Source: Bacteroidota bacterium (lineage in GTDB: Bacteria; Bacteroidota; Bacteroidia; Chitinophagales; LD1). From it: a stretch of 64,000 bases of DNA. A model generated the notes under the pieces. The model did no database searches. It was not told where the DNA came from and was given only the letters and a program-made list of their open reading frames with translations. Position numbers and translations under genes: made by a program. Shown in pieces: positions 6,651-63,189 of the stretch. Numbering within the stretch: the first letter of the stretch is position 1; every line of letters begins with the position of its first letter. The stretch covers positions 66,871 to 130,870 of the forward strand of contig CANJZE010000006.1 in the NCBI GenBank assembly GCA_947479455.1. The letters run 5' to 3'.

Positions 6651-6671
6651 ATTGATTATTGTTGATTGTTC
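6651..6671. repeat. Short heptad tract before the UbiA-like gene
   Basis: Three 7-bp units ATTGATT, ATTGTTG and ATTGTTC occur in register just upstream of the ATG at 6686. Short, so weaker than the other tracts, but the same 7-bp pattern. Confidence 0.5.
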
Positions 6672-6685
6672 ATAAGCACATTGAA

Positions 6686-7546
6686 ATGATAGCCTTGCGT
6701 AAATTCAAAGACTTTATTCTGTACTCCAATATTTTTATTGGGGTGTGTGCATTGGCTTTGGCCTTTACTAATCAGGTTGCTATGGAAGGCGATATTCATT
6801 TTAATCACACGTATTGGTTTGTGTTTTTCTCCACCATGTTTACCTATTCATTTTTAAAATTCAGAAGAGTGGGCGAAGGACCAAGCGATACTTCGCACAG
6901 AACCTGGGCGCAGGAAAATCTGCAACTCTCCAAAAACATTCTAGTTATAACGCTAGTCGCAACGGTTAGTTTTTTCTTTATGCTCAGTCATCAACAGCAG
7001 ATAATCGTTGGTGTGTTAGCGGTGGTTACTCTGTTTTATGGCTTTGTAGATATTCCTTTTCTTAAACCCAGCAGAAAGCTTCGCGATTTTGGTTTGCTGA
7101 AAACATTTTTTGTAGCACTGGTTTGGTCGGTAACTACAGTTATTGTTCCACTATCAAACACTTTTGTTGAAAGCGACATGCTTGTTTTTCTCTTTCTCCG
7201 CAGATTTCTTTTTGTTATGGCGCTTACTATCGTGTTTGAAATAAAGGATTTAAAGAGCGATGAAGAATACAATCTGAAAACTATTCCAATGCGCCTTGGT
7301 ATCTCAAACACTAAACTGTTAGCACAAGGAGTTTTATTTTTGCTTATGCTGATTAACAGCGTACAGTATTTTTTCTTCGATGTTTCGTTACTAAATATGA
7401 TGGCGGTGAATCTTTCCTTGCTCGTTTCTATCCTTTGCATTCAACCAGTCAATGAAGAAACAAATGATTGGTGGTATTATTTCGTATTAGATGGCATGAT
7501 GATGCTCCAGTTTATTTTCGTTTACGGGGCTGCTAAATATCTGTAG
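6686..7546 (+). CDS. UbiA-like polytopic membrane protein
   Basis: A protein of 286 residues with about eight hydrophobic segments, resembling the UbiA prenyltransferase superfamily in overall layout. The second Asp-rich region is recognisable as EIKDLKSDEEYNLKTIPMRLG, where UbiA enzymes carry DxxxD and an xTxPxxLG-like sequence. The first NDxxDxxxD motif is not evident; the corresponding loop reads RRVGEGPSDTSHRTW. It may therefore be a divergent or non-canonical member. I chose the ATG at 6686 over an in-frame TTG at 6659, because the TTG lies inside a heptad repeat. The stop codon abuts the start of the SGNH gene, so the two are likely co-transcribed. Substrate unknown. Confidence 0.7.
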   Translation: MIALRKFKDFILYSNIFIGVCALALAFTNQVAMEGDIHFNHTYWFVFFSTMFTYSFLKFRRVGEGPSDTSHRTWAQENLQLSKNILVITLVATVSFFFMLSHQQQIIVGVLAVVTLFYGFVDIPFLKPSRKLRDFGLLKTFFVALVWSVTTVIVPLSNTFVESDMLVFLFLRRFLFVMALTIVFEIKDLKSDEEYNLKTIPMRLGISNTKLLAQGVLFLLMLINSVQYFFFDVSLLNMMAVNLSLLVSILCIQPVNEETNDWWYYFVLDGMMMLQFIFVYGAAKYL

Positions 7547-44941: not shown

Positions 44942-44983
44942 GTCTGATGTCTAAAGTCTAATGTCTAGTGTCTAACTTCTATT
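44942..44983. repeat. GTCTNNN heptad tract at the end of the giant SprB-repeat gene
   Basis: Six units in register: GTCTGAT, GTCTAAA, GTCTAAT, GTCTAGT, GTCTAAC, TTCTATT. The tract abuts and slightly overlaps the 3' end of the giant gene. Confidence 0.8.
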
Positions 44984-47900
44984 TAATCACCGTCAAACTT
45001 CCTTTGTAATCGCGCGAGTAACCGTTAATGAATACCGCTTTCATAGTATAGATGAATACTCCCTTAGGAAGTGCTTCGCCTTGGTACGTTCCATCCCAAC
45101 TAAAGTTAGCATTCATTGATTCGAATACTTTCTCTCCCCAACGATTGAATACAGCGAAATCTAAATACACGATGGTGTTTACATCGCCATAAATTTTTAA
45201 CTCATCATTGTTACCATCACCGTTTGGTGTAAAAGCATTTGGAACAAAAATATCGGTAATAGAATTTACTTCAACAGTCAACGTATCCGAAGCTTTGCAA
45301 CCGTTGGCATCCATCACATTTACTGTGTAGTGAGTTGTAAAGGTTGGAACCACATCAGTAGTTTGACAGTTAGTACAAATTACATTTTGTGTAGGTGTCC
45401 ATGAATAAACGTTAGCGTGGTCAGTATTAGTTGTTGCAGTCAACTTCAACGATTCACCTAAATTTATAGTAGTTGAATTGGTAGCATCTACTTGTAAATC
45501 GTAATCGTAAGTTACAGTAAAGTTTGCCTGAGCCGAACAGTTACGAGAATCAGCAATAGTCACATCGTAGTTACCCTGTGCCAGGTCGTTGATAGATGGA
45601 GTTGTTTCTCCATTGCTCCAACGGAAAACATACGAAGGTGTTCCACCGCTTACGGTCAAATCAATTTGACCATTCTGTACTTGTGCGCACGCAGTGTTCT
45701 TTACTGTTGAAGTAACCGATAGGGCAGGAGCCATACCTACTATTTCCATTTTGCTCATTACACAACTGTTGTTGTCAGTCACTGTAACTCCGTAGTTTCC
45801 TACCGGCAGGTTCAATAAATCTTTGTCGCTGTGAGCAGTATTCCACATGAAAGAGTACGGTGGAGTTCCACCACTTGCGCTCATATGAATTTCACCATCG
45901 TTACGACCGCTGCAACCTACCGGAATAATATTTTCTGTTAATTCTAATGCCGAAGGTTGGTTTACCGCTATAGAAGGAATAGTAGTTGCACAACTGTTTG
46001 CATCTACCACTGTTACCGCATAGTTAGCGGCTAAAAGTGATGAAACGCTTGTTGTAGAGCTATTGTTACTCCAGGCAAAAGTATAAGGCGAAACTCCGCC
46101 TGTTGTTGAAAGACTGATAGAACCGTTGTTTCCGCCAAAACAACTTACGTGATTAATTGTTGGATTAATCGCTAAAGCGCTCGGTTCAGTTATTATAGAA
46201 GAAGCTGAAGACGAACAGTTGTTGGCATCCACTACCACCACAGAATAGATACCAGCAGTAACATTGTTCAAGTTTTGTGTTAACGAACCGTTTGTCCAGT
46301 TGTAACTGAAAGGCATAGTTCCACCGGTAACATAAACACTTACAGCGCCAGTTGCTGCACCATTGCACAATACATCTGTTTTACTCAAGGAAGTCGAAAT
46401 AGAAACCAGTGCAGTTATTGAAACGCTTGTAGTAGAAGTGCAAGCATTAGCATCGGTAACTACTACTGTATAATTTGCTGCCGCAAGATTGTTGATATCT
46501 TGAGTGGTGGCCGCGTTTGTCCAGTTGTAAGTATATGGAGTTGTTCCACCGGCAACAGTTAAATCAATTGCACCTGCGTTAGTTGAACAAGCAAAAGCTG
46601 TATGCGTTTCGCTAAGTGAAAGAATAGCAGGTTGTGTTATTGCAATGGTTTTTGTCGTAGTGCAAGAGTTAGCATCGGCAATAGTTACGGTGTATGATCC
46701 TGCATTTAAACCATTCACATTTTGAGAAACTGCAGCGTTGCTCCAGCTAAAGGAGTAAGCTCCAGTTCCACCCGCTGGTGTAATGTTTATCGATGCATTG
46801 TTTCCGCCATTGCACGATACATTTACATGTGTTTCGGTAGTGGTAACCTGTGTAGGTTGTGCAACTGCTATAGAAGAAACTACAGAACAATTAGAAGCAT
46901 CCATTACGGTTACAGTATATGTTGCCGCTGCAAGGTTGCCGATGTTTTGTGTAATGGCACCATTGCTCCAGTTAAAAGTATATCCAGCGTTTCCACCGCT
47001 TACTGTTGTAGTAATGCTTCCGTTTGAATTGCCAAAACACGTAGCATCTGTTTTAGAAAGGGAAACAGAAATGGCTGTAGCTTGAGTAATGGTAGAGGAA
47101 GAAACTGCTGAACACGCATTGGCATCCGTTACAGTTACCGAATAATTTCCGGCAATTACATTTGAAATGTTCGAAGTAGTAGCGTTGTTAATCCAATTAT
47201 AAACGTAAGGTGAAGTTCCTCCGCTTACCGTTGAACTTACCGCACCGGTACTTGCTCCGTTACAAACTACATTGGTGGCCGAAGTAGAAACTGATAAAGT
47301 CGCAGGCTCAGTAATAGTTGCAGTTAATGAAGCGGTGCATGAATTACCATCGGTAACAATAACGCTATAATTTCCAGATGTGATTGAGCTTATATCTTGT
47401 GAAGTAGCACTGTTGCTCCAGTTATAAAAATAAGGAGTTGTTCCACCGTTAACGCTCAGGTTTATTGCTCCGTTGTTTCCACCGTTACATAAAATGTTCG
47501 TGTGCGTTTCGGTTAAAACAATTTGCGATGGTTGAGTAATGCTTAATGAAAGCGTAGTAGCACAAGCCGCTGCATCGCTCAATGAAAGTGTATATGAACC
47601 TCCGCTTAGGTTAGTGATAGTGGCAGTATTACCACCATTGCTCCAGTTGAAAATATAACCTCCGTTTCCACCGCTTGCGTTAGCTGTAATTGCACCGTTT
47701 GTTCCACCATAGCAGTTTACATTGGTTTGAATTACGCTTACCGTTAATGGACTTGGCTGCACAATAGCTACAGAAACAGCAGATGAACAAGCGTTGGCAT
47801 CGGTAATAGTTACCCCATAAGTTCCTGCACCTGCATTCCATAAATCTTGCATAGTAGCGTTGTTGTTCCAGTGATAAACATAAGGAGTAGCTCCACCGCT

Positions 47901-50900
47901 TACGCTTACATCAATACTTCCGCTGATGGCTCCGTTGCATACCACATCTGTTTTTACATAAGTTACTACCAATGGTGCAGGCTGAGTAATGCTGGTAGAA
48001 GAATTAACTGAGCAAGCATTTGCATCGGTAACAATTACCGAGTAGTTTCCCGCTGTAAGCGAAGTTCTGTTTGGTGTAACTACTCCACCGCCCCAGTTAT
48101 AGTTGAATGGCGATGTTCCTCCCGCTACAGTTAAAGTAATGCTTCCGTTGTTTCCACCACTGCACGAAACGTTTGTTTGTGCAGCTATAACAGTAAGTAA
48201 AGCCGGTTGAGAAATAACGATGCTTGAAGAAGCACTGCACCAGTTATTATCGTTTACCGAAACAGTATAGGTTCCGGCAATCAATGTTGAAATATCTTGT
48301 GAGGTAGCCGCATTGCTCCAAGCATAAGTAAATGGACTACTTCCACCTGTTACGGTCAAATCAATGCTCGCATTGTTTCCTCCGTTACAAAGCACATTTA
48401 CTTTTGTATTGCTAAGAACTATTTGCGTTGGTTGAGTGATAGTAGCATTTGCTAATACGGTGCAGTTAGATGCATCTTTAACAGTAACCGTGTAAGTATT
48501 AGCTGCTACACTAGTAACATCTTGAGTAGTTGCCGCGTTGCTCCACACGTAAGTGTATGCACCTGTTCCACCACTCACGCTCAAATCAATACTTCCTGTA
48601 TTTGAACCAAAGCAACTTGCATTGATACTGGAAACCGAAGTAGTAATTTGAGTGGCCTGTGAAATAGAAGCAGAGGTTGTAGCGGTGCAAGAGTTAGCAT
48701 CGTTCACCGTTACCGAATATGAATTGGCAACAAGTGAAGAAATGTTTTGTGTTTGCGCTGCGTTGGTCCAAAGGTAAGTATAAGGACTTGTTCCTCCAGC
48801 CACTGTTAAGTTTATACTTCCGGTTGCGGCACCAAAACAGGCAACATCAACTTTTGTAGTGCTCAAAGAAATTACTGCAGGCTGAGTCACAGTAGCAGAA
48901 GTAGCGAAGGTGCAAGAGTTATTGTCTGTAATAGTTACAGCATAAGAACCTTGCGCAAGAGCCACTCTGTTTTGTGTAACTGCCCCACCTGCCCAAGCAA
49001 AAGAATATGGACTTGTTCCGCCATTTGCAGTTAAAGCAATTGCTCCGTTGTTTCCGCCATTGCACGAAACATTCGTAATATTTGCAGTAGCAGAAATTGC
49101 CGAAGGTTGAGTTACAACGCTGCTGTTTGTTCCTGAGCAACCTGCATTGTCAATCACTGTTACTGTGTAAGTAGCCGCTGAAAGGTTTGTTCTGTTTTGT
49201 GTAAACACTCCACCACCCCAGTTATAAGTGTACGGAGCCGTTCCGCCATTGGCAGTAATGGTTATTGCTCCGTTGTTTCCACCGTTGCAACTAACATTAG
49301 TTACCACCGGTGTTACTGCTAATGCAGCTAATTGAATTACTGTAGAAGTATTCGTTGCCGTGCAACTTGCGTTATCAGTTACAGTAACTGAATAATTTCC
49401 TGCTGCAACACTTGTTCTGTTTTGCGAAATAATTCCACCGCCCCAGTTAAAGGTATAAGGACTAGTTCCTCCATTTACCGAAATATTTACTGCTCCTGTA
49501 TTACCACCTACACAGGCTACATTTGTTACTGTTGGTGTAATGGTAATCGCAATTGGTTGACCCACTACGGCTGTGTTTGCCGAAGTGCAACCCGCGTTGT
49601 CACTAACTGTTACGGTATAGCTTCCCGCTAAAAGCGCAGTTCTGTTTTGCGAAATAATTCCACCGCCCCAGTTATAACTGTAAGGTGTGGTGCCGCCTGT
49701 TGTTGTAATAGTTATAGCTCCGTTGTTTCCTCCATTACAAGTTGAATTAGTAACTGTTGAAGAAACACTCAATGAAGTAGTTTGCGAAATAGTAGCCGTG
49801 TGCGTAGAAGTGCAGCTTGCATTATCAGTAATGGTAACAGTATAAGAACCCGAAATTAAATTCGTTCTGTTTTGTGTAAGCACACCACCACCCCAGTTAA
49901 AAGTGAAAGGCGAAGTTCCACCGGTTACAGTTAAAGTTATAGCTCCGTTATTTCCACCGTTGCATGCAACGTTTGTAGTAGTTGATGAAGCAGAAATTGC
50001 AGAAGGCTGATTTATGCTTGAAGATGATGAGGCGGTGCAAGATGAATTATCAGTTACTGTAACTACATAATTTCCTGCAAGCAACGAAGTTCTGTTTTGC
50101 GTTACAATTCCACCACCCCAGTTGAAAGTATAAGGAGAAACTCCACCGTTTACGCCTATGTTTATTGCGCCAGTGCTACCACCATTACAGGTTGCATTGG
50201 TTACCGTTGGTGAAATTACAATGGCTGTTCCTTGCGAAACCGTTGATGAATTTGTAGTTGTGCATCCTGCATTATCAGTAACAATTACTGTATAATTTCC
50301 GGCAAGCAATGTATTTCTGTTTTGAGAAATAATTCCACCGCCCCAGTTGAAAGCGTAGGGTGAAGTTCCACCGCTTACTCCTATAATGATGCTTCCGTTA
50401 GTTCCACCAAAACAAGTTGCGTTAGTTACAGTCGAAGTAACTGCTATTGCGGTTGGTTGAGTAAGGTTGCTACTGTTCGAAGCTGTGCATCCTGCATTAT
50501 CCGTAACGGTTACTACATAATTCCCCGATGAAAGAGTCGTTCTATTTTGTGTTACCACACCGCCACCCCAGTTAAAGCTATAAGGTGCAGTTGCTCCCGT
50601 TACTGTTAAAGTGATTGCTCCGTTTGTTCCGCTATTGCACGATACATTCGTTACTACGGGAATAATACTTAATGAAGTAGCCTGACCAACTGTAGCTGTG
50701 TGTGCGGCTGTGCATCCGGTATAATCAGTTACAGTTACACTATATGCTGCGGCTGAAAGGTTCGTTCTGTTTTGCGCTATAGCTCCACTGTTCCAAAGAT
50801 AAGTATAAGGCGAAGTGCCTCCCGTTACAGCTAAATTTATTGCCCCATTGTTTCCACCAAAGCAAGAGGCATTTGTAATAGAAGAAGAAACGTTGATAGC

Positions 50901-53228
50901 AGCCGGTTGATTGATAACAGCCGATGCGGAGTAAGTGCATCCCGCGTTATCCATGACGGTTACCGAGTAAGTTCCTGCACCTAACGCACTTCTGTTTTGA
51001 GAAGTAATACCACCGCCCCAGTTATAGTTATACGGACTACTTCCGCCACTCACAGCTAAATTCACCCAGCCGTTGTTTGAATTGAAACAAGTTAAATCAC
51101 CAACACTCACATTAAGGTTTGCCAAAGTTGGTTGACTGATAGTAGCAGAAGAAGTAGCGGTACAAGAGCGATTATCAGTAACAGTTACAGAATAATTTCC
51201 GGCAAAAAGGCCCGTTCTGTTTTGTGTTGTAATTCCGCCATTCCAGCTATAAGTGTAGGGAGCAAAACTTCCTGAAACCGCTAAGTTTATAGCACCTGTG
51301 TTTGCACCAAAACAAGTGGCGTTGGTAACAGTAGGTGAAACAGAAATAGCATTGGGTTGATTTACCGCAATGCTAGAACTTATAGAGCAACCTGAATTAT
51401 CAGTAACGGTTACTACATAGTTACCCGATGCAAGTGCCGTTCGGTTTTGCGTAAGAATACCACCACCCCAGTTATAAGAGTAAGGTGTGGCACCGTTGGT
51501 AACGGTAATATTTATAGTTCCGTTAGTGTAACCAAAACAGGCAGCGTCTACCACCGTAGAACTAATGTTCATTCCAAAGGCAGGTTGTGTTATGGTTACG
51601 GTTTTAGTAATGCTGCAAACTAAGTTATCGGAAATAGTAACGGTGTAAGTTCCTGCAACAAGTCCCGAAGGGTCTTGCACCACAGCGCCATTGCTCCAAG
51701 TGTATGAATAGGGAGTCCATCCGTTACTTACCGTTAAGTTGATGGAACCTGAAGCAGCACCAAAGCAGGTAACGTTTGCCTGAGTGGTGGTTGCGGTCAT
51801 AGGAGTGTACGGCAATACAGTGGCCGAGGCTACAGAAGAACATCCGTGCGCATCGGTAACTGTTACCGTATACGTTCCCGAGTTTACATTCACCCGATTC
51901 GGAGTAACCACTCCACTTCCCCACCAATAGGTGTAAGGTCCAGTTCCGCCTATAATGTTTGTCATTACTGAACCCGTTGGACCTCCGGTGCAAGCTAAAG
52001 GTGATGGAACTGCAGTTGCAGTTAAAACCAATGGTTCTGGAACAAAGGCGCTTGCAGTTGCAGTGCAGCTTTTAAAATCAGTAACCGTTACTGTAAAAGT
52101 TCCTGAAGCAAGACCTGTTCTGTTTTGTGTAAACACACCACCACCCCAGTTATAGGTATAAGGTGATGTTCCACCTGTAGAAGTTGTATTGATAGCTCCG
52201 TTGTTACTTCCAAAACAGGTTAAGGCAACCACGTTTAAGGTTACATTCAATGCTGTCGGCTGACTAACATTTACTGTAGCAGCTGCTGTGCATCCTGTAG
52301 TTGAAGTAGCTGTAACGGTATATGAACCTGCAGAAATACCTGTGCGGTTTTGAGTGGTTGGTCCATCGTTCCATGCAAAAGTATAAGGCCCTACACTGCC
52401 AGTTACCGAGGTAACATTTATGGTTCCATTACTTCCACCATTACAAGAAGGCTGTGCCGATGAGGTATTTACAGTCATACCGGCACCTGATTGAGATACG
52501 GTTGCTGTAAGACTTGCTGTGCATCCACTTGCATCTGTAACTGTAACTACATAATTGCCTGCTGCAATTCCTGTGCGGTCTTCTGTATTAGCTCCATCAT
52601 TCCATAAATAAGTATAGCCTGGAACCCCGAATAATACTGTCAAATTTATTGCCCCGTTAGCACCACTTCCACAAGTAACGTTTGTAGTTGTTCTAGAAAG
52701 AACCATTCCCGCAGGTTGCGTAACATTAGCTGAATCAACTTTTGTGCAGCCTCTGGAATCAGTTATAGTAACGTAATATACAGCTGCAGTTAGTGAACTT
52801 CTGTTTTGTGTAGTTATACCATCGTTCCATAAATAAGTATAACCGGCTGTGCCGCCACTTACCGTTAGTGCTATTGCTCCTGTATTACCTCCCCCACAAA
52901 ATACGCCTGTTATAGATTTAGAAACACTAATTACTGTGGGTTCCGTAACTGTGATAGAAGCAGAAGCTGTAACGCCAAAAAAATCGGCAACTGTTACGGT
53001 ATAGGTTCCCGCAGCAATTCCGGTTCTGTCTTGTGTGGTAGTTCCACCATTCCAAAGATAAGTGTAAGGAGCAGAGCCGCCCGATGGGGTAATGTCTATG
53101 CTGCCGTTGGTTCCGCCATTGCAACTAACATTTACATGCGTTTCAGCTATAAAAACAGCTGCGAATGTCTGCGCGCTAAGCGCAGTAAAAAATGTAAGTA
53201 ATACAATGGCACGTGTAAAGTTTTTCAT
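44979..53228 (-). CDS. Giant SprB-repeat adhesin with gliding-associated C-terminal domain (type B T9SS)
   Basis: About 2749 residues. The signal peptide starts at MKNFTRAIV; an upstream in-frame ATG at 53318 is less likely because it precedes a long non-signal stretch. I count 34 consecutive SprB-type repeats of about 74 residues with the pattern TNVxCNGGNNGAIxL..GGTSPYTYNWGGG...TQNRTxLxAGxYxVTVTDNxxCT. The C-terminal 190 residues contain an Ig-like domain and FVPNAFTPNGDGNNDELKIYG...FNRWGEKVFES...GVFIYTMKA, the gliding-motility-associated C-terminal domain used for type B T9SS export. A cell-surface adhesin involved in gliding or attachment is inferred. Neighbouring repeats are highly similar, especially 12-19, and so prone to recombination. 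Confidence 0.92.
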   Translation of the reverse strand: MKNFTRAIVLLTFFTALSAQTFAAVFIAETHVNVSCNGGTNGSIDITPSGGSAPYTYLWNGGTTTQDRTGIAAGTYTVTVADFFGVTASASITVTEPTVISVSKSITGVFCGGGNTGAIALTVSGGTAGYTYLWNDGITTQNRSSLTAAVYYVTITDSRGCTKVDSANVTQPAGMVLSRTTTNVTCGSGANGAINLTVLFGVPGYTYLWNDGANTEDRTGIAAGNYVVTVTDASGCTASLTATVSQSGAGMTVNTSSAQPSCNGGSNGTINVTSVTGSVGPYTFAWNDGPTTQNRTGISAGSYTVTATSTTGCTAAATVNVSQPTALNVTLNVVALTCFGSNNGAINTTSTGGTSPYTYNWGGGVFTQNRTGLASGTFTVTVTDFKSCTATASAFVPEPLVLTATAVPSPLACTGGPTGSVMTNIIGGTGPYTYWWGSGVVTPNRVNVNSGTYTVTVTDAHGCSSVASATVLPYTPMTATTTQANVTCFGAASGSINLTVSNGWTPYSYTWSNGAVVQDPSGLVAGTYTVTISDNLVCSITKTVTITQPAFGMNISSTVVDAACFGYTNGTINITVTNGATPYSYNWGGGILTQNRTALASGNYVVTVTDNSGCSISSSIAVNQPNAISVSPTVTNATCFGANTGAINLAVSGSFAPYTYSWNGGITTQNRTGLFAGNYSVTVTDNRSCTATSSATISQPTLANLNVSVGDLTCFNSNNGWVNLAVSGGSSPYNYNWGGGITSQNRSALGAGTYSVTVMDNAGCTYSASAVINQPAAINVSSSITNASCFGGNNGAINLAVTGGTSPYTYLWNSGAIAQNRTNLSAAAYSVTVTDYTGCTAAHTATVGQATSLSIIPVVTNVSCNSGTNGAITLTVTGATAPYSFNWGGGVVTQNRTTLSSGNYVVTVTDNAGCTASNSSNLTQPTAIAVTSTVTNATCFGGTNGSIIIGVSGGTSPYAFNWGGGIISQNRNTLLAGNYTVIVTDNAGCTTTNSSTVSQGTAIVISPTVTNATCNGGSTGAINIGVNGGVSPYTFNWGGGIVTQNRTSLLAGNYVVTVTDNSSCTASSSSSINQPSAISASSTTTNVACNGGNNGAITLTVTGGTSPFTFNWGGGVLTQNRTNLISGSYTVTITDNASCTSTHTATISQTTSLSVSSTVTNSTCNGGNNGAITITTTGGTTPYSYNWGGGIISQNRTALLAGSYTVTVSDNAGCTSANTAVVGQPIAITITPTVTNVACVGGNTGAVNISVNGGTSPYTFNWGGGIISQNRTSVAAGNYSVTVTDNASCTATNTSTVIQLAALAVTPVVTNVSCNGGNNGAITITANGGTAPYTYNWGGGVFTQNRTNLSAATYTVTVIDNAGCSGTNSSVVTQPSAISATANITNVSCNGGNNGAIALTANGGTSPYSFAWAGGAVTQNRVALAQGSYAVTITDNNSCTFATSATVTQPAVISLSTTKVDVACFGAATGSINLTVAGGTSPYTYLWTNAAQTQNISSLVANSYSVTVNDANSCTATTSASISQATQITTSVSSINASCFGSNTGSIDLSVSGGTGAYTYVWSNAATTQDVTSVAANTYTVTVKDASNCTVLANATITQPTQIVLSNTKVNVLCNGGNNASIDLTVTGGSSPFTYAWSNAATSQDISTLIAGTYTVSVNDNNWCSASSSIVISQPALLTVIAAQTNVSCSGGNNGSITLTVAGGTSPFNYNWGGGVVTPNRTSLTAGNYSVIVTDANACSVNSSTSITQPAPLVVTYVKTDVVCNGAISGSIDVSVSGGATPYVYHWNNNATMQDLWNAGAGTYGVTITDANACSSAVSVAIVQPSPLTVSVIQTNVNCYGGTNGAITANASGGNGGYIFNWSNGGNTATITNLSGGSYTLSLSDAAACATTLSLSITQPSQIVLTETHTNILCNGGNNGAINLSVNGGTTPYFYNWSNSATSQDISSITSGNYSVIVTDGNSCTASLTATITEPATLSVSTSATNVVCNGASTGAVSSTVSGGTSPYVYNWINNATTSNISNVIAGNYSVTVTDANACSAVSSSTITQATAISVSLSKTDATCFGNSNGSITTTVSGGNAGYTFNWSNGAITQNIGNLAAATYTVTVMDASNCSVVSSIAVAQPTQVTTTETHVNVSCNGGNNASINITPAGGTGAYSFSWSNAAVSQNVNGLNAGSYTVTIADANSCTTTKTIAITQPAILSLSETHTAFACSTNAGAIDLTVAGGTTPYTYNWTNAATTQDINNLAAANYTVVVTDANACTSTTSVSITALVSISTSLSKTDVLCNGAATGAVSVYVTGGTMPFSYNWTNGSLTQNLNNVTAGIYSVVVVDANNCSSSASSIITEPSALAINPTINHVSCFGGNNGSISLSTTGGVSPYTFAWSNNSSTTSVSSLLAANYAVTVVDANSCATTIPSIAVNQPSALELTENIIPVGCSGRNDGEIHMSASGGTPPYSFMWNTAHSDKDLLNLPVGNYGVTVTDNNSCVMSKMEIVGMAPALSVTSTVKNTACAQVQNGQIDLTVSGGTPSYVFRWSNGETTPSINDLAQGNYDVTIADSRNCSAQANFTVTYDYDLQVDATNSTTINLGESLKLTATTNTDHANVYSWTPTQNVICTNCQTTDVVPTFTTHYTVNVMDANGCKASDTLTVEVNSITDIFVPNAFTPNGDGNNDELKIYGDVNTIVYLDFAVFNRWGEKVFESMNANFSWDGTYQGEALPKGVFIYTMKAVFINGYSRDYKGSLTVIK

Positions 53229-53416
53229 GCCTGGTTCCGGTTTTAGTTTAATGCTGCACAGAACCTTCAATTCCATGCAACAAATTAATATACGAAAACA
53301 AGTCTTAGTTTGTTTCAATCCTTACACATTGTACGTCTTGAATTACACGGTTTTGCTGTGTAAGACAAAAGGAAATCCTTGTTATAAGCAGAGAACTAAC
53401 GAAGTTACTCTACACC

Positions 53417-58661: not shown

Positions 58662-59642
58662 GTGAATTCACTTTACTCAAAAATTTTTACGGTTACAGAT
58701 TTAAATTTTGAAGAAACAACTCTCGAGGTTTTTGCTTTTCAATATGAACACGTGAAAGTCTACCGACAGTTTTGCGATTCACTGAAACAGAATCCCGCAA
58801 ATGTCAAAAGCATTTCGCAAATTCCTTTTTTGCCTATTGAGTTTTTTAAAACACATGCTGTAATTGCTGAAGGTGAAACTGCGTCAAAGACTTTTGAAAG
58901 CAGTGGAACAACAGGGCAAATTACTTCTAAGCATCATGTTGTTGATTTGAATGTGTTTGAAGAAAGTTTTTTGAAATGTTTTGAGCAATTTTATGGAGAT
59001 GTAAATCAGTATGTGATTATAGCACTGCTTCCTTCTTATCTGGAGCGAAATAATTCTTCGCTTGTTTACATGGCGAAAGACTTGATGGAAAGAAGCAGAC
59101 AAAACGCCAGCGGGTTTTTTCTCAATGATTTCGATAAACTTTACGACTGGCTGGATGTGCTCAAAACCAGTAAACGAAAAGTGATATTGCTCGGAGTAAC
59201 TTTTGCTTTACTTGATTTTGCCGCACAGTATAAAATTGATTTTCCTGATTTAATTGTAATGGAAACAGGTGGTATGAAGGGAAGAAGAGAGGAACTTACC
59301 CGACAGGCAGTTCATCTGCAATTGAAAAATTCATTTGGTGTAAAGAACATTCACAGTGAATACGGAATGACAGAACTCCTGTCGCAAGCCTATTCTAAAG
59401 GGGATGGAATTTTTCAATCTCCACCTTGGCTTAAAATTTTTACCCGTGATATGTATGACCCATTGCGGTTGCAGGAAGAAAATAAAACGGGAGTAATCAA
59501 TGTGATTGACCTGGCTAATTTGTATTCATGTTCATTTATTGCCACTGGAGATTTAGGAAAAGTAAACTTCAACGGAACCTTTGAAGTGTTGGGTAGAATG
59601 GCAGATGCCGAAGTGCGCGGATGTAATTTGATGGTAGTATAG
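58662..59642 (+). CDS. LuxE/PaaK-like acyl-adenylating ligase
   Basis: A 326-residue protein of the ANL superfamily, closest to LuxE acyl-protein synthetases. The AMP-binding loop is FESSGTTGQITSKHHV; later blocks are VMETGGMKGRREELTR and SEYGMTELLSQAYSKG (the YGMTE motif of LuxE). LuxE-type enzymes activate a carboxylate as acyl-AMP and pass it to a Cys. The start is GTG, as there is no ATG close by. It is followed by two membrane-protein genes with very short or overlapping junctions, suggesting one operon. Substrate unknown; an envelope or lipid role is inferred from the neighbours. Confidence 0.82.
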   Translation: MNSLYSKIFTVTDLNFEETTLEVFAFQYEHVKVYRQFCDSLKQNPANVKSISQIPFLPIEFFKTHAVIAEGETASKTFESSGTTGQITSKHHVVDLNVFEESFLKCFEQFYGDVNQYVIIALLPSYLERNNSSLVYMAKDLMERSRQNASGFFLNDFDKLYDWLDVLKTSKRKVILLGVTFALLDFAAQYKIDFPDLIVMETGGMKGRREELTRQAVHLQLKNSFGVKNIHSEYGMTELLSQAYSKGDGIFQSPPWLKIFTRDMYDPLRLQEENKTGVINVIDLANLYSCSFIATGDLGKVNFNGTFEVLGRMADAEVRGCNLMVV

Positions 59643-60083: not shown

Positions 60084-60918
60084 AAATTTTGAAAAGAGTT
60101 TTCGTGCAAAAGCAATCGCAGTCTTTGTCTGTGTTTTGTTGGTGTTGCTCTATCGTTTCATCAGCGGTACGCTCTTTACAGGTCTTTATGGTTTCTGTTG
60201 CGGTTTAGAATACGGCAATGTTTTCTATCACCTGTTTATTAAAACCGGAATACCTGCATTTATACTTTCCTCTCATTCTTTGTCTCTCTCTTTCGATTTG
60301 TGTTTGTTCGTGTTGCCTGTTTTTTTTTTACTAACGCGGAAGAGAATGTTTGCGATTCTGTTTACTGCTGTAGCAGTAATTTATTTTCTATTGTTCAATA
60401 TGGTAACCGCACATTTCTATCACGGTTTCTTTACGGTTATTATTATCTCCATTCCTTTTTGGTGTAAAAACGAAACGCGTTTTAATCTTTTATGGGAAGG
60501 CGCACGTTACTATCTGCTTTATGTTTTTGCATCGGCAGCTTTATGGAAAATATTCCGCGGTTCAGTTTTCTATACAGAACAACTTTCCAATATTCTAAAG
60601 CATCAGCAGCTCGATATGTTTTTGCAACAACCAATGAGTTATCAAGCGAGTTGCGTGCAATACTTAATTGCGCATCCCGAAACTTCGCATGTGATGCTGA
60701 TAATGAACGTTGTTGTGCAGTTGTTTTTTATCCTTGGCTTTTTTACAAAGAAGTTTGATTCCCTTCTTTTTGTATTGGCAATTGTTTTTTGTGCTGCCAA
60801 CTACTTTGTAATGGGAATTACTTCAACTGAATTGTTGGTATTGAATTTAACGCTTCTGAATTGGAAGAAAATAGAAGCACTACTTCCGAACAAAATGCTG
60901 TTTCAACAGAGCAGCTAA
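60070..60918 (+). CDS. Polytopic membrane protein (possibly HTTM/DoxX-like)
   Basis: A 282-residue protein with seven or eight hydrophobic segments. The block WEGARYYLLYVFASAALWKIFRGSVFY resembles the ALWK core seen in DoxX/HTTM-type membrane proteins, but the match is too weak to name. It overlaps the previous gene by 14 bp and the convergent UbiA-glycosyltransferase gene by 39 bp. Third gene of a likely LuxE-like operon. Function unknown. Confidence 0.75.
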   Translation: MSAVENFEKSFRAKAIAVFVCVLLVLLYRFISGTLFTGLYGFCCGLEYGNVFYHLFIKTGIPAFILSSHSLSLSFDLCLFVLPVFFLLTRKRMFAILFTAVAVIYFLLFNMVTAHFYHGFFTVIIISIPFWCKNETRFNLLWEGARYYLLYVFASAALWKIFRGSVFYTEQLSNILKHQQLDMFLQQPMSYQASCVQYLIAHPETSHVMLIMNVVVQLFFILGFFTKKFDSLLFVLAIVFCAANYFVMGITSTELLVLNLTLLNWKKIEALLPNKMLFQQSS

Positions 60919-63189
60919 GTTCTCTGTATAGTTTTTGAATAGCGGATTCGAATGAATGCTTACGCTTGCTCGCTTACCGGTTTCAAAAACAAGATTGCTA
61001 TCAGCAACTAAACGCAACATCGCGTTCGCCATTCCATCCACATCATATTCATCAACTAAGAACCCCGTTTCGTTTTCTGTTATTACTTCTTTAATCCCTC
61101 CATGGCGTGTGGAAACAACGGGCAAGCCTGCTGCCATGGCTTCGAGCACAGCAATTGGTGTTCCTTCTTTATCTTTATTAACTGGCGTGGTAACCGAGTG
61201 TTGAACAAAGACCTTTGCCTTCTTCATTTCTACATATACTTCTTCTGGTGAAAGAATTTCTTTGAATTCTACGTTGTTTTCAAGCTGAAGCGAGCGCACA
61301 AGAATTTTACAAGCTTCGAACAATTCACCACCACCATCTTTGCCTATCATTATCAATTTGGCATCCGGAATTGTCTGTAATACTTTTGTAAAAGCAAGAA
61401 TGGTGAGATGGGGACTCTTGGTTTCTGAAAACCTTCCTACGCTTAAAAACACAGGAGCGTTTTTACTTACATCGCAGTATTGAAACAATTCAAGATCAAC
61501 GAATGCGGGTTGATAAATAATTTTGTATTCATCGGCTCCCATCGAAATCAATTCATCTTTCATCTGTCTTGAAACAGCAATTAGCGCAGCCGCGTTTTTG
61601 AAAAGACTTTTATATGATTCCTTGAATTCGTTTTTAATTTTTTGATGATACACATCGTAGCCGTGGAAATTAACCACTAATGGAATTCCTGTATCTTTTG
61701 CAATTTCCATTAGCTGCACACCTACAGGTCCATACTCAGCAAGAATCAATTCAATTTTGTTTTTAATAAGGTAGCGAACAATTGCCTTCTTCAGAAAGAA
61801 GTTTTTCGGTTTCTTCAAAACCGTTTCAAGAAAGTTCACCCAGTTTAAAATGCGTTCATCATTACTAAGCAAAGGTTCACCACCATCAAAATATTTAGGC
61901 AACTCTCCTCCATATAAATAATGTGCTTCAAAAGGCAATTGCCCGAGCATTTTGTAAATGAAGGTTTCAGTGTATTTGCGCTCGTGAATATTAACTACAG
62001 CAATTCTTCCTGTATCACTTTTCTGTTTTAGTGCAGCTACAGATTTTTCATAGTTAATATGTCGCTCGTAATCTTTACCACGCGCTTGTGCTTCATTGTA
62101 ACGCAAAACAATTTTGCGGAAAAAGTAAATAGAAAAGTTGAGCAGGAGAGAAGCCGGTTTGAAAATTAAGACATGAAAAAAAAGAGAGGCAAATTTGCTC
62201 AGCCAATAACAAGTGAACTTTGAAAACTCCCATGTTCGTTCGAGCAAACGATGAAACAAAAACAGGTGGGCAAACAAAAGCAGCACATACGTTCTGTCAG
62301 CCAGGCATAGCATAATAATGCTGAGCAACGGAAAAACCTGCTGATAAAAATCGTCTAACGAAATGCGTTTAAAGTTGTAGGTAAAACGAAACGTTGCAGT
62401 GAGTATGGGTTCAAGAAAGAAAACAAATAGGGCAAGAGGCATGAACAGAAAGGCATACGAATGAAAATTTGCACCTGCATAAAGCAGAAGCAAAAGCAAA
62501 GCGGAGAATTCAACAGGTAGTAAATACTTTGATGCAAGACGATAGACAAAATTATTTCCTCGTTCAGTTGCCAGCGTTGTATGAATCGACAGTAAATCAT
62601 TCTCGCGGTCAAGTGCAATATGATTGAGATAGTAACGAATGCCGCTGCAAATTTTCCAGATAACTAGCAGCGAAATAAAAACTAAATCAACATTTCGTCC
62701 ATTGATGAGAAAAAGAATTCCTGCAAACAAGCCTGCGGGAATTACGTGTGAGTAAAGCGCATCGGCAATGGGAGCCATGAGCGGTTTCGTTTTTAACCGA
62801 AAAGGAGAGAAGGAGTATGTGATGAACAAAATCAACTCTGCCGCAATAAGCGAAAGCGAATAGATATAATGCTGAAAGAAAACCCAGGGAGCGAGAGATA
62901 GGATGGTGAAGAGCGCAACAACTAGAAATTTTTTGAAAGGATGAAGGAGAGCAACTATGTTTTGCTTGCTTGCTTTTCTATCGGTTTCTATATCGGCCCA
63001 ATCGTTTAAAAAATAACCCAGCGAGGCAAAACCCGTAATGCTTAAAAATAAGCGCACCACAATGCGCAACGAATCGTGCGCATAAAAACCAAGAATAAAC
63101 AACATGAAATATGCTACACCCAATAAAGGAGCTGCGGTGTATTTCCACCAGTTTTTGTAACGCGTAATTTGTGAAAGCGACTGGAACAT
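60880..63189 (-). CDS. Fusion of a UbiA-type prenyltransferase and a GT4 glycosyltransferase
   Basis: A 769-residue protein. Residues 1-300 form a polytopic UbiA-type domain, with the first Asp motif NDWADIETD (Asn62, Asp63, Asp66, Asp70) and second motif LDRENDLL (Asp194, Asp198). A membrane-linker region follows to about residue 390. Residues 395-769 are a GT4 glycosyltransferase: VGRFSETKSPH, then EGTPIAVLEAMAAGLPVVSTRHGG with the EX7E motif. This pairs a polyprenyl transferase with a glycosyltransferase in one chain, which suggests synthesis of a prenylated or lipid-linked glycoconjugate. Substrate unknown. It overlaps the convergent neighbour by 39 bp. Confidence 0.85.
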   Translation of the reverse strand: MFQSLSQITRYKNWWKYTAAPLLGVAYFMLFILGFYAHDSLRIVVRLFLSITGFASLGYFLNDWADIETDRKASKQNIVALLHPFKKFLVVALFTILSLAPWVFFQHYIYSLSLIAAELILFITYSFSPFRLKTKPLMAPIADALYSHVIPAGLFAGILFLINGRNVDLVFISLLVIWKICSGIRYYLNHIALDRENDLLSIHTTLATERGNNFVYRLASKYLLPVEFSALLLLLLYAGANFHSYAFLFMPLALFVFFLEPILTATFRFTYNFKRISLDDFYQQVFPLLSIIMLCLADRTYVLLLFAHLFLFHRLLERTWEFSKFTCYWLSKFASLFFHVLIFKPASLLLNFSIYFFRKIVLRYNEAQARGKDYERHINYEKSVAALKQKSDTGRIAVVNIHERKYTETFIYKMLGQLPFEAHYLYGGELPKYFDGGEPLLSNDERILNWVNFLETVLKKPKNFFLKKAIVRYLIKNKIELILAEYGPVGVQLMEIAKDTGIPLVVNFHGYDVYHQKIKNEFKESYKSLFKNAAALIAVSRQMKDELISMGADEYKIIYQPAFVDLELFQYCDVSKNAPVFLSVGRFSETKSPHLTILAFTKVLQTIPDAKLIMIGKDGGGELFEACKILVRSLQLENNVEFKEILSPEEVYVEMKKAKVFVQHSVTTPVNKDKEGTPIAVLEAMAAGLPVVSTRHGGIKEVITENETGFLVDEYDVDGMANAMLRLVADSNLVFETGKRASVSIHSNPLFKNYTENLAALLKQHFVRK

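Follow-up and report, generated by a model that had tools for sequence, protein, structure and literature searches.

A stretch of 64,000 nucleotides from the genome of a Bacteroidota bacterium (Chitinophagales; GenBank assembly GCA_947479455.1, contig CANJZE010000006.1, positions 66,871 to 130,870 of the forward strand), referred to below as the window, contains a gene for a protein of 769 amino acid residues, in which a UbiA-type membrane prenyltransferase domain is followed by a glycosyltransferase domain of family 4 (GT4). The fusion of these two domains is real and is conserved in some Bacteroidota, and the protein may take part in the assembly of surface glycans or glycolipids.

The open reading frame (ORF) begins with ATG and contains no internal stop codons. 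Uninterrupted full-length counterparts were found in 10 other genomes (G004, G015, G010, G176, G191, L094, L095, L097, L100 and G448), and one more fusion (G003, 44% identity) is interrupted by the contig end; together with the window, these make up the 12 fused loci discussed below. Identity to the window protein is 87% for G004, 86% for G015, 66% for G010, 42% for G176, 40% for L100, 38% for L094, 37% for G191, and 36% for both L095 and L097. The records L091, L092, L093, L094 and L096 were taken as the same as G015, G010, G004, G444 and G484, and L097, L098, L099 and L100 as the same as G546, G628, G191 and G398. The fusion genes of the window, G004 and G015 are equally long from a common start codon. 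The ratio of nonsynonymous to synonymous substitution rates (dN/dS, simple counting) against G004 and G015 is 0.08 and 0.10 for the UbiA part, 0.08 and 0.08 for the GT4 part, and 0.08 and 0.27 for the linker, indicating purifying selection that is weaker in the linker when G015 is compared. A frameshift, a missing stop between two genes or an assembly error, any of which would have undone the sequence-only reading of one chain with two domains, is ruled out by the full-length orthologues and the codon comparison, including the constraint on the linker; the fusion is not an artefact.

UbiA-Type Domain

The N-terminal half of the protein was predicted to be helical and hydrophobic, and whole-chain fold searches returned solely GT4-type enzymes. 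The AlphaFold2 model of the 769-residue protein has a mean predicted local distance difference test score (pLDDT) of 79.9 and a predicted template modelling score (pTM) of 0.50, which makes the relative placement of the two domains unsure. The UbiA half of the window protein gave no Pfam UbiA match in the first scan and 27.5 bits against the PF01040 cut-off of 34.2 in another; of the six fused relatives scanned, L061, L062, L097 and L100 exceed this cut-off in a chain that also carries GT4, and L095 and L148 do not. The two split homologues, L025 and L026, likewise exceed it.

Both motifs of the UbiA superfamily, NDxxDxxxD and a second motif DxxxD of the prenyl-diphosphate type, are present. 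All 23 aligned UbiA domains keep N62, D66, D70, R131, K133, H190, D194 and D198; D63 is conserved in at least 90% of them and is replaced by E in six rows of a larger set of 31 rows, where D194 and D198 are found in every row and R131 is replaced in L036. The intact pair of metal-binding motifs and the GT4 domain, which the earlier reading had placed in one chain, are thus borne out by the ORF, the alignments and Pfam, and the loss of catalytic residues in homologues, which would have spoken against it, was not seen in the aligned chains for either half. A tail similar to the one that serves as linker here also terminates several stand-alone UbiA proteins and opens three GT4 proteins that have no UbiA core.

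A quick tree with several long branches split the 31 clade rows from 15 UbiA-family paralogues of G000, G019 and G176 with a Shimodaira–Hasegawa-like approximate likelihood ratio test (SH-aLRT) value of 99; on this tree, the UbiA half falls within a clade of Bacteroidota proteins separate from the 15 paralogues tested. Among solved structures, the one nearest to the UbiA profile is digeranylgeranylglyceryl phosphate (DGGGP) synthase (PDB code 6m31), a stand-alone enzyme that forms prenyl ethers, although the match is weak (E-value 2.3e-5, 27 bits); the second is chlorophyll synthase (E-value 0.005). An hhalign comparison with five groups of paralogues placed a DGGGP-like group first (probability 92) and a DPPRS-like group second (probability 63), both labels being our own and the latter assigned from motifs. 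No geranylgeranylglycerol-phosphate NCBIfam model matched the window UbiA half at an E-value of 0.01; L061 and L096 score 17 to 30 bits on DGGGP-type NCBIfam models with cut-offs of 278 to 353.

In the UbiA-family enzymes PPPRS and DPPRS, cytoplasmic loop IV carries an RxxE motif (PMC11127046), and lysines of the DPPRS Rv3806c are described near the pyrophosphate (PMC10994848). The loop IV column holds R in all three DPPRS-like paralogues (L121–L123) and in none of the 31 clade rows; D198 occurs in all 31 clade rows and in a single one of the three paralogues (L121). Since L121 has both Asp residues of the second motif, the loop IV test is less sharp. The loop IV pattern, along with the DGGGP-type profile likeness, makes the UbiA half look like a prenyl-diphosphate enzyme, and it is suggestive of such an enzyme, as predicted from these comparisons, rather than of a phosphoribosyl enzyme.

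A second UbiA-family gene of the window (6659–7546, plus strand; 295 residues) belongs to a different branch. Searches with the UbiA profile of the clade also detected two fusions of other kinds, neither of them among the tree rows: L037:849-2660 (minus strand, G022), where UbiA is joined to a galactose-3-O-sulfotransferase-like domain in a protein of 603 residues with a similar SIYYFRK tail between the domains, and L156:100-2136 (plus strand, G088), where it is joined to a DXD (Gly_transf_sug) glycosyltransferase domain in a protein of 678 residues. The UbiA proteins L154:8687-10483 (plus strand) and L155:8045-9880 (minus strand), of about 600 residues, have an additional hydrophobic part.

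Glycosyltransferase Domain

Residues 391–769 constitute a complete GT4 domain. A Pfam search of the window protein revealed Glycos_transf_1 (E-value 3.9e-36, 124.6 bits) and Glyco_transf_4 (E-value 3.2e-13, 50.5 bits), both above the cut-off, and the modelled domain has the GT-B fold, superimposing on BshA (PDB code 3mbo) with a Z-score of 35.4 and a root-mean-square deviation of 3.1 over 343 residues. The residues E675 and E683, invariant in all nine fused chains compared, form the C-terminal motif that we take to be the one known in GT4 enzymes as E-x7-E. The best NCBIfam match of this half is WcaL (TIGR04005), at 108 bits against a cut-off of 537.6; neither BshA nor WcaL is fused to a membrane enzyme.

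Distribution and History of the Fusion

Searches with the window protein at an E-value of 1e-50 found matches in 8 of 30 genomes of the family and 35 of 396 genomes of the order; the latter comprise six full-length fusions, the cut fusion of G003 and 28 matches to the GT4 half only. With a profile of the fused protein at an E-value of 1e-100, 13 of 395 genomes of the class matched (five full-length), as did 3 of 395 genomes of the phylum, the only full-length one there being that of the window. Fused chains are present in the family codes f1, f17, f25 and f31. In two genomes, UbiA and GT4 are encoded by separate genes next to each other, which lie 7 bp apart in G019 and overlap by 4 bp in G008 (starts assigned mechanically), and the pairing of the domains, a search for which had been suggested together with the initial reading, recurs across genomes. 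Of 396 genomes of the order, 35 have the GT4 orthologue, 60 have a member of the UbiA clade and 18 have both (Fisher p 1e-7, ignoring the kinship of genomes and assuming that both draws of 396 are the same genomes).

In trees built without L148, L150 and L151, the GT4 domains of the fusions form one group of 12 rows (98 SH-aLRT), which includes L096 and L098. An exclusive clade of the 10 fused rows is rejected by the approximately unbiased (AU) test (p 0.0003) because L096 and L098 fall inside it; a single clade for the UbiA halves of the fusions is not rejected (p 0.0655). The ORF of L098 leaves the contig just upstream of the UbiA-like tail. The GT4 proteins L096, L150 and L151 are apparently de-fused by loss of the UbiA half after the fusion, and a single origin of the fusion with later losses is possible. 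A further ORF, L153:7880-10135 (minus strand, G951; 751 residues), contains the GT4 orthologue at residues 376–732, and the part preceding it appears sulfotransferase-like by eye.

Genomic Surroundings

Neighbouring genes were counted within 9 kb of each locus, as far as the contigs extend, and were labelled by similarity grouping, Pfam being run on the group representatives alone. PhyH-type genes lie near eight of the 12 fused loci, a gene for an ABC-transporter ATPase near seven, a membrane protein (group c16) near five, a sugar epimerase (c17) and TPR membrane proteins (c7) near four each, and a GDSL protein (c29) near three; surface-glycan-type genes surround eight of the 12. The Pfam families of the representatives include PhyH, epimerase, ABC transporter parts, UDP-glucose dehydrogenase, DegT, MBOAT and radical SAM. 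For 31 other UbiA loci, a set that includes near-copies as well as L037 and L156, an AsnB-type gene was found near 15, a DXD-glycosyltransferase-type gene near 21 and at least one labelled neighbour near 28. Most of the examined loci of the UbiA clade are set among genes of the surface-glycan type.

Conservation of the neighbours, a question raised in the sequence-only reading, takes two forms: G004 and G015 share with the window's species the order of the adjoining genes (Table 1), and a cluster of another type accompanies the eight distant fused loci, with little common between both. The 3' ends of the fusion and the convergent gene overlap by 39 bp (60880–60918), an overlap also found in G004 and G015. 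The genome of the window has 14 PhyH matches and an epimerase 67% identical to that of c17, and other contigs carry genes resembling those of ABC transporters; partners of the fusion protein could, as these genes suggest, act in trans.

PhyH-type genes number 14 in G000 (contigs C2, C9 and C15), 23 in G010 and 17 in G019, some of them in tandem, and are present in one of 14 control genomes. Group c16 (L100:9755-11626, plus strand, and relatives) is a membrane protein of 600 residues near five fused loci. A Foldseek search with its model (pLDDT 55.6) returned GGCX for all top nine PDB matches (best E-value 1.6e-3, TM 0.22); PDB sequence and Pfam searches for a relationship to vitamin K carboxylase were empty, and the Foldseek result from this weak model is only a lead. 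The suggestion that the 282- and 141-residue neighbours represent a split c16 found no support in profile comparison (probability 0.4 and 3). The c7 TPR membrane proteins gave a sub-threshold TMTC match and may be GT-C-like, as would be expected of the GT-C member of a three-component periplasmic glycosylation system, in which it is encoded together with a lipid-donor synthase and a flippase. Promoter-like sites number 13, where shuffled sequence gives 15.6, and terminator-like sites 9, where it gives 4.7; neither count enters the argument. Elsewhere in the window (44979–53318, minus strand) lies a gene for a tandem-repeat protein of 2779 residues, the C-terminal end of which we take to resemble a domain of the gliding or type IX secretion system (T9SS) type.

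Table 1. Positions of the fusion gene, its domains and motifs, and the adjoining genes in the window.
Feature	Position	Strand	Basis or occurrence
UbiA–GT4 fusion gene, 769 residues	60880..63189	-	ORF, full-length orthologues
UbiA-type membrane prenyltransferase domain, residues ~1-330	62200..63189	-	Alignment with 22 other UbiA domains; Pfam UbiA in homologues
First Asp-rich motif NDWADIETD, residues 62-70	62980..63006	-	N62, D66, D70 invariant
RLK, residues 131-133	62791..62799	-	R131, K133 invariant (23/23)
Second Asp-rich motif DREND, residues 194-198	62596..62610	-	D194, D198 invariant
C-terminal tail of UbiA (linker), residues 331-390, includes NFSIYFFRKIVL	62020..62199	-	Tail likeness
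GT4 (GT-B) glycosyltransferase domain, residues 391-769	60883..62019	-	Pfam, fold match to BshA
GT4 motif EGTPIAVLE, residues 675-683	61141..61167	-	E675, E683 invariant in 9/9 fused chains
Convergent neighbour, membrane protein of 282 residues	60070..60918	+	Also next to the fusion in G004 and G015; not in G010
Neighbour of 141 residues	59658..60083	+	Also kept in G004 and G015
LuxE-like acyl-protein synthetase gene	58662..59642	+	Pfam LuxE, 2.2e-13; also kept in G004 and G015

Possible Function of the Fusion Protein

The reading that we favour, with somewhat less than an even chance of being right, is that the fusion protein is a membrane enzyme whose two domains serve the assembly of surface glycans or glycolipids: judging from motifs and gene contexts, the UbiA domain may prenylate and the GT4 domain glycosylate, in successive steps, in the synthesis of a glycan anchor. 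The substrates, the order of the steps and the product given here are those that we infer. At the cytoplasmic face of the membrane, the UbiA domain would take the isoprenoid chain of a prenyl diphosphate and attach it to a polar acceptor that is probably a sugar or a glycan building block, forming a prenyl anchor of the ether or ester type. The tethered GT4 domain would add a sugar from a nucleoside diphosphate sugar to the same lipid-bound molecule, or would make the acceptor just before. The prenyl-anchored product would join a glycan decorated by other enzymes, which an ABC transporter may export in lineages with a glycan cluster; for the window's species, this would call for partner genes acting in trans. 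The main argument is that UbiA is found repeatedly beside, or fused to, glycan-modifying enzymes, which suggests a glycan or its lipid anchor as the product.

Several observations weigh against this reading. Four of the 12 fused loci (G000, G004, G015 and G010), all of the window's genus, have no adjoining glycan cluster, their glycan-type neighbours amounting to one c7 gene in G000, one c7 gene in G004, none in G015 and one AsnB-grouped gene in G010. Among 35 loci of the GT4 orthologue, six are fused, seven have a separate gene of the UbiA clade and 22 have no UbiA gene in the stretch examined (some of these stretches being short), which speaks against an obligatory coupling; likewise, 17 of the 35 genomes of the order with the GT4 orthologue gave no match to the UbiA clade at the threshold used, so GT4 can work without UbiA. 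The GT4 proteins L096:7611-8981, L150:8877-10247 and L151:9095-10465 have a hydrophobic helix and the UbiA-like tail at their start and lack a UbiA core, and their existence indicates that the tether is not essential. The GT4 proteins without UbiA, those keeping just the tail and the lone setting of the fusion in the window's genus all argue against strict coupling. In addition, no isoprenoid-synthase gene was present among the Pfam-scanned representatives of the neighbours, where no search was aimed at such genes.

The same GT4 proteins lend some credit to the view that the UbiA half does no more than anchor or scaffold an ordinary glycan GT4 at the membrane, or has an activity unrelated to the GT4 step: many GT4 orthologues do without UbiA, a helix and a tail, as kept by three of them, are sufficient for anchoring, and the UbiA half of the window diverges from the Pfam model. 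This view is nevertheless unlikely, since the motifs are conserved in both halves, with motif positions invariant across the aligned UbiA domains, and the low dN/dS of the UbiA part, close to that of GT4, points to a constraint exceeding the needs of an anchor. It is rather improbable that adjacent genes of a glycan cluster were fused through proximity, both halves being active on different molecules. Adjacent UbiA and GT4 pairs do exist, and the UbiA half was apparently lost again in some lineages, but the grouping of the fused GT4 domains, with L096 and L098 inside, and their spread over four family codes indicate that the fusion has long been maintained; it also persists away from glycan clusters in the window's genus.

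According to a further explanation, the UbiA half transfers a pentosyl group to polyprenyl phosphate in the manner of DPPRS or PPPRS, so that a polyprenyl-phosphate sugar serves as donor for a periplasmic enzyme, and GT4 performs a separate cytoplasmic step. The only characterised fusion of UbiA with a glycan enzyme found in the literature searched is of this kind, namely ORF15 of Citrobacter youngae O1, encoded in an O-antigen locus, in which a HAD phosphatase is fused to a UbiA-family PPPRS (PMC11127046). It resembles the fusion described here in combining a UbiA-family domain with a glycan-modifying enzyme and in being encoded in a surface-polysaccharide locus; it differs in its phosphatase partner, loop IV RxxE and phosphoribosyl pyrophosphate (PRPP) donor, in place of which the protein of the window has GT4, no R in the column and DxxxD. 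No HAD phosphatase domain was reported by the Pfam scan of the window protein, which gave glycosyltransferase families alone. The phosphoribosyl explanation also gains from the c7 proteins, GT-C-like by our assumption and from the sub-threshold TMTC match, near four fused loci including the window, from the second place of the DPPRS-like group in the profile comparison and from L121, which also carries the two Asp residues of the second motif. The loop IV and D198 counts point the other way, RxxE was not found, and the three DPPRS-like paralogues group elsewhere in the tree; we therefore consider this explanation disfavoured, and quite improbable.

It is very unlikely that the UbiA half prenylates a quinone or another aromatic compound, which GT4 then glycosylates, perhaps in connection with the vitamin-K-carboxylase-like neighbour: the acceptors of classical UbiA enzymes are aromatic, c16 lies near five of the 12 fused loci with a weak model matching GGCX, and chlorophyll-synthase and homogentisate-type models weakly match some clade members, but the nearest UbiA profile is of the DGGGP type, the c16 model is poor, and no aromatic-pathway gene was present among the scanned representatives, which cover part of the neighbours.

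Returning to the favoured assembly of a prenyl-anchored glycan, the moenomycin pathway offers an analogy only: a polar core is prenylated and then handled by glycosyltransferases, a sugar epimerase and AsnB-type amidotransferases, but the prenyltransferase is not of the UbiA type and the product is a secreted antibiotic. Fusions of IspH with UbiA have reportedly been described; there, as here, a UbiA-family domain is joined to another enzyme, but the partner belongs to the isoprenoid pathway and is not a glycan enzyme. The substrates of characterised UbiA enzymes belong to the quinones, hemes, chlorophylls, ether lipids, carotenoids or phosphoribosyl donors. No UbiA–GT4 fusion was found in the openly licensed literature searched, an absence that is weak evidence; it agrees with the earlier statement that no characterised example is known, the HAD phosphatase–PPPRS fusion being of a different kind (PMC11127046). 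Ubi-297 of marine Flavobacteria, encoded in the ebo cluster, is likewise a UbiA-like prenyltransferase of Bacteroidota and prenylates quinoline derivatives, and the available part of the report mentions no glycosyltransferase (PMC9235831).

A broader proposal, possible but doubtful, is that the Bacteroidota UbiA clade is dedicated to placing isoprenoid anchors on sugars, which would give rise to a class of prenylated surface glycans or glycolipids, and was repeatedly fused to the enzyme acting next on that molecule, be it GT4, the sulfotransferase of L037 or the DXD glycosyltransferase of L156. Relatives of this glycan-tied clade are fused to three kinds of glycan-modifying enzyme, and the UbiA–GT4 fusion offers a direct handle, the product of one half being the likely substrate of the other. 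If the proposed function is true, it would mean a new class of substrates for the UbiA family and a new mode of membrane anchoring for bacterial glycans.

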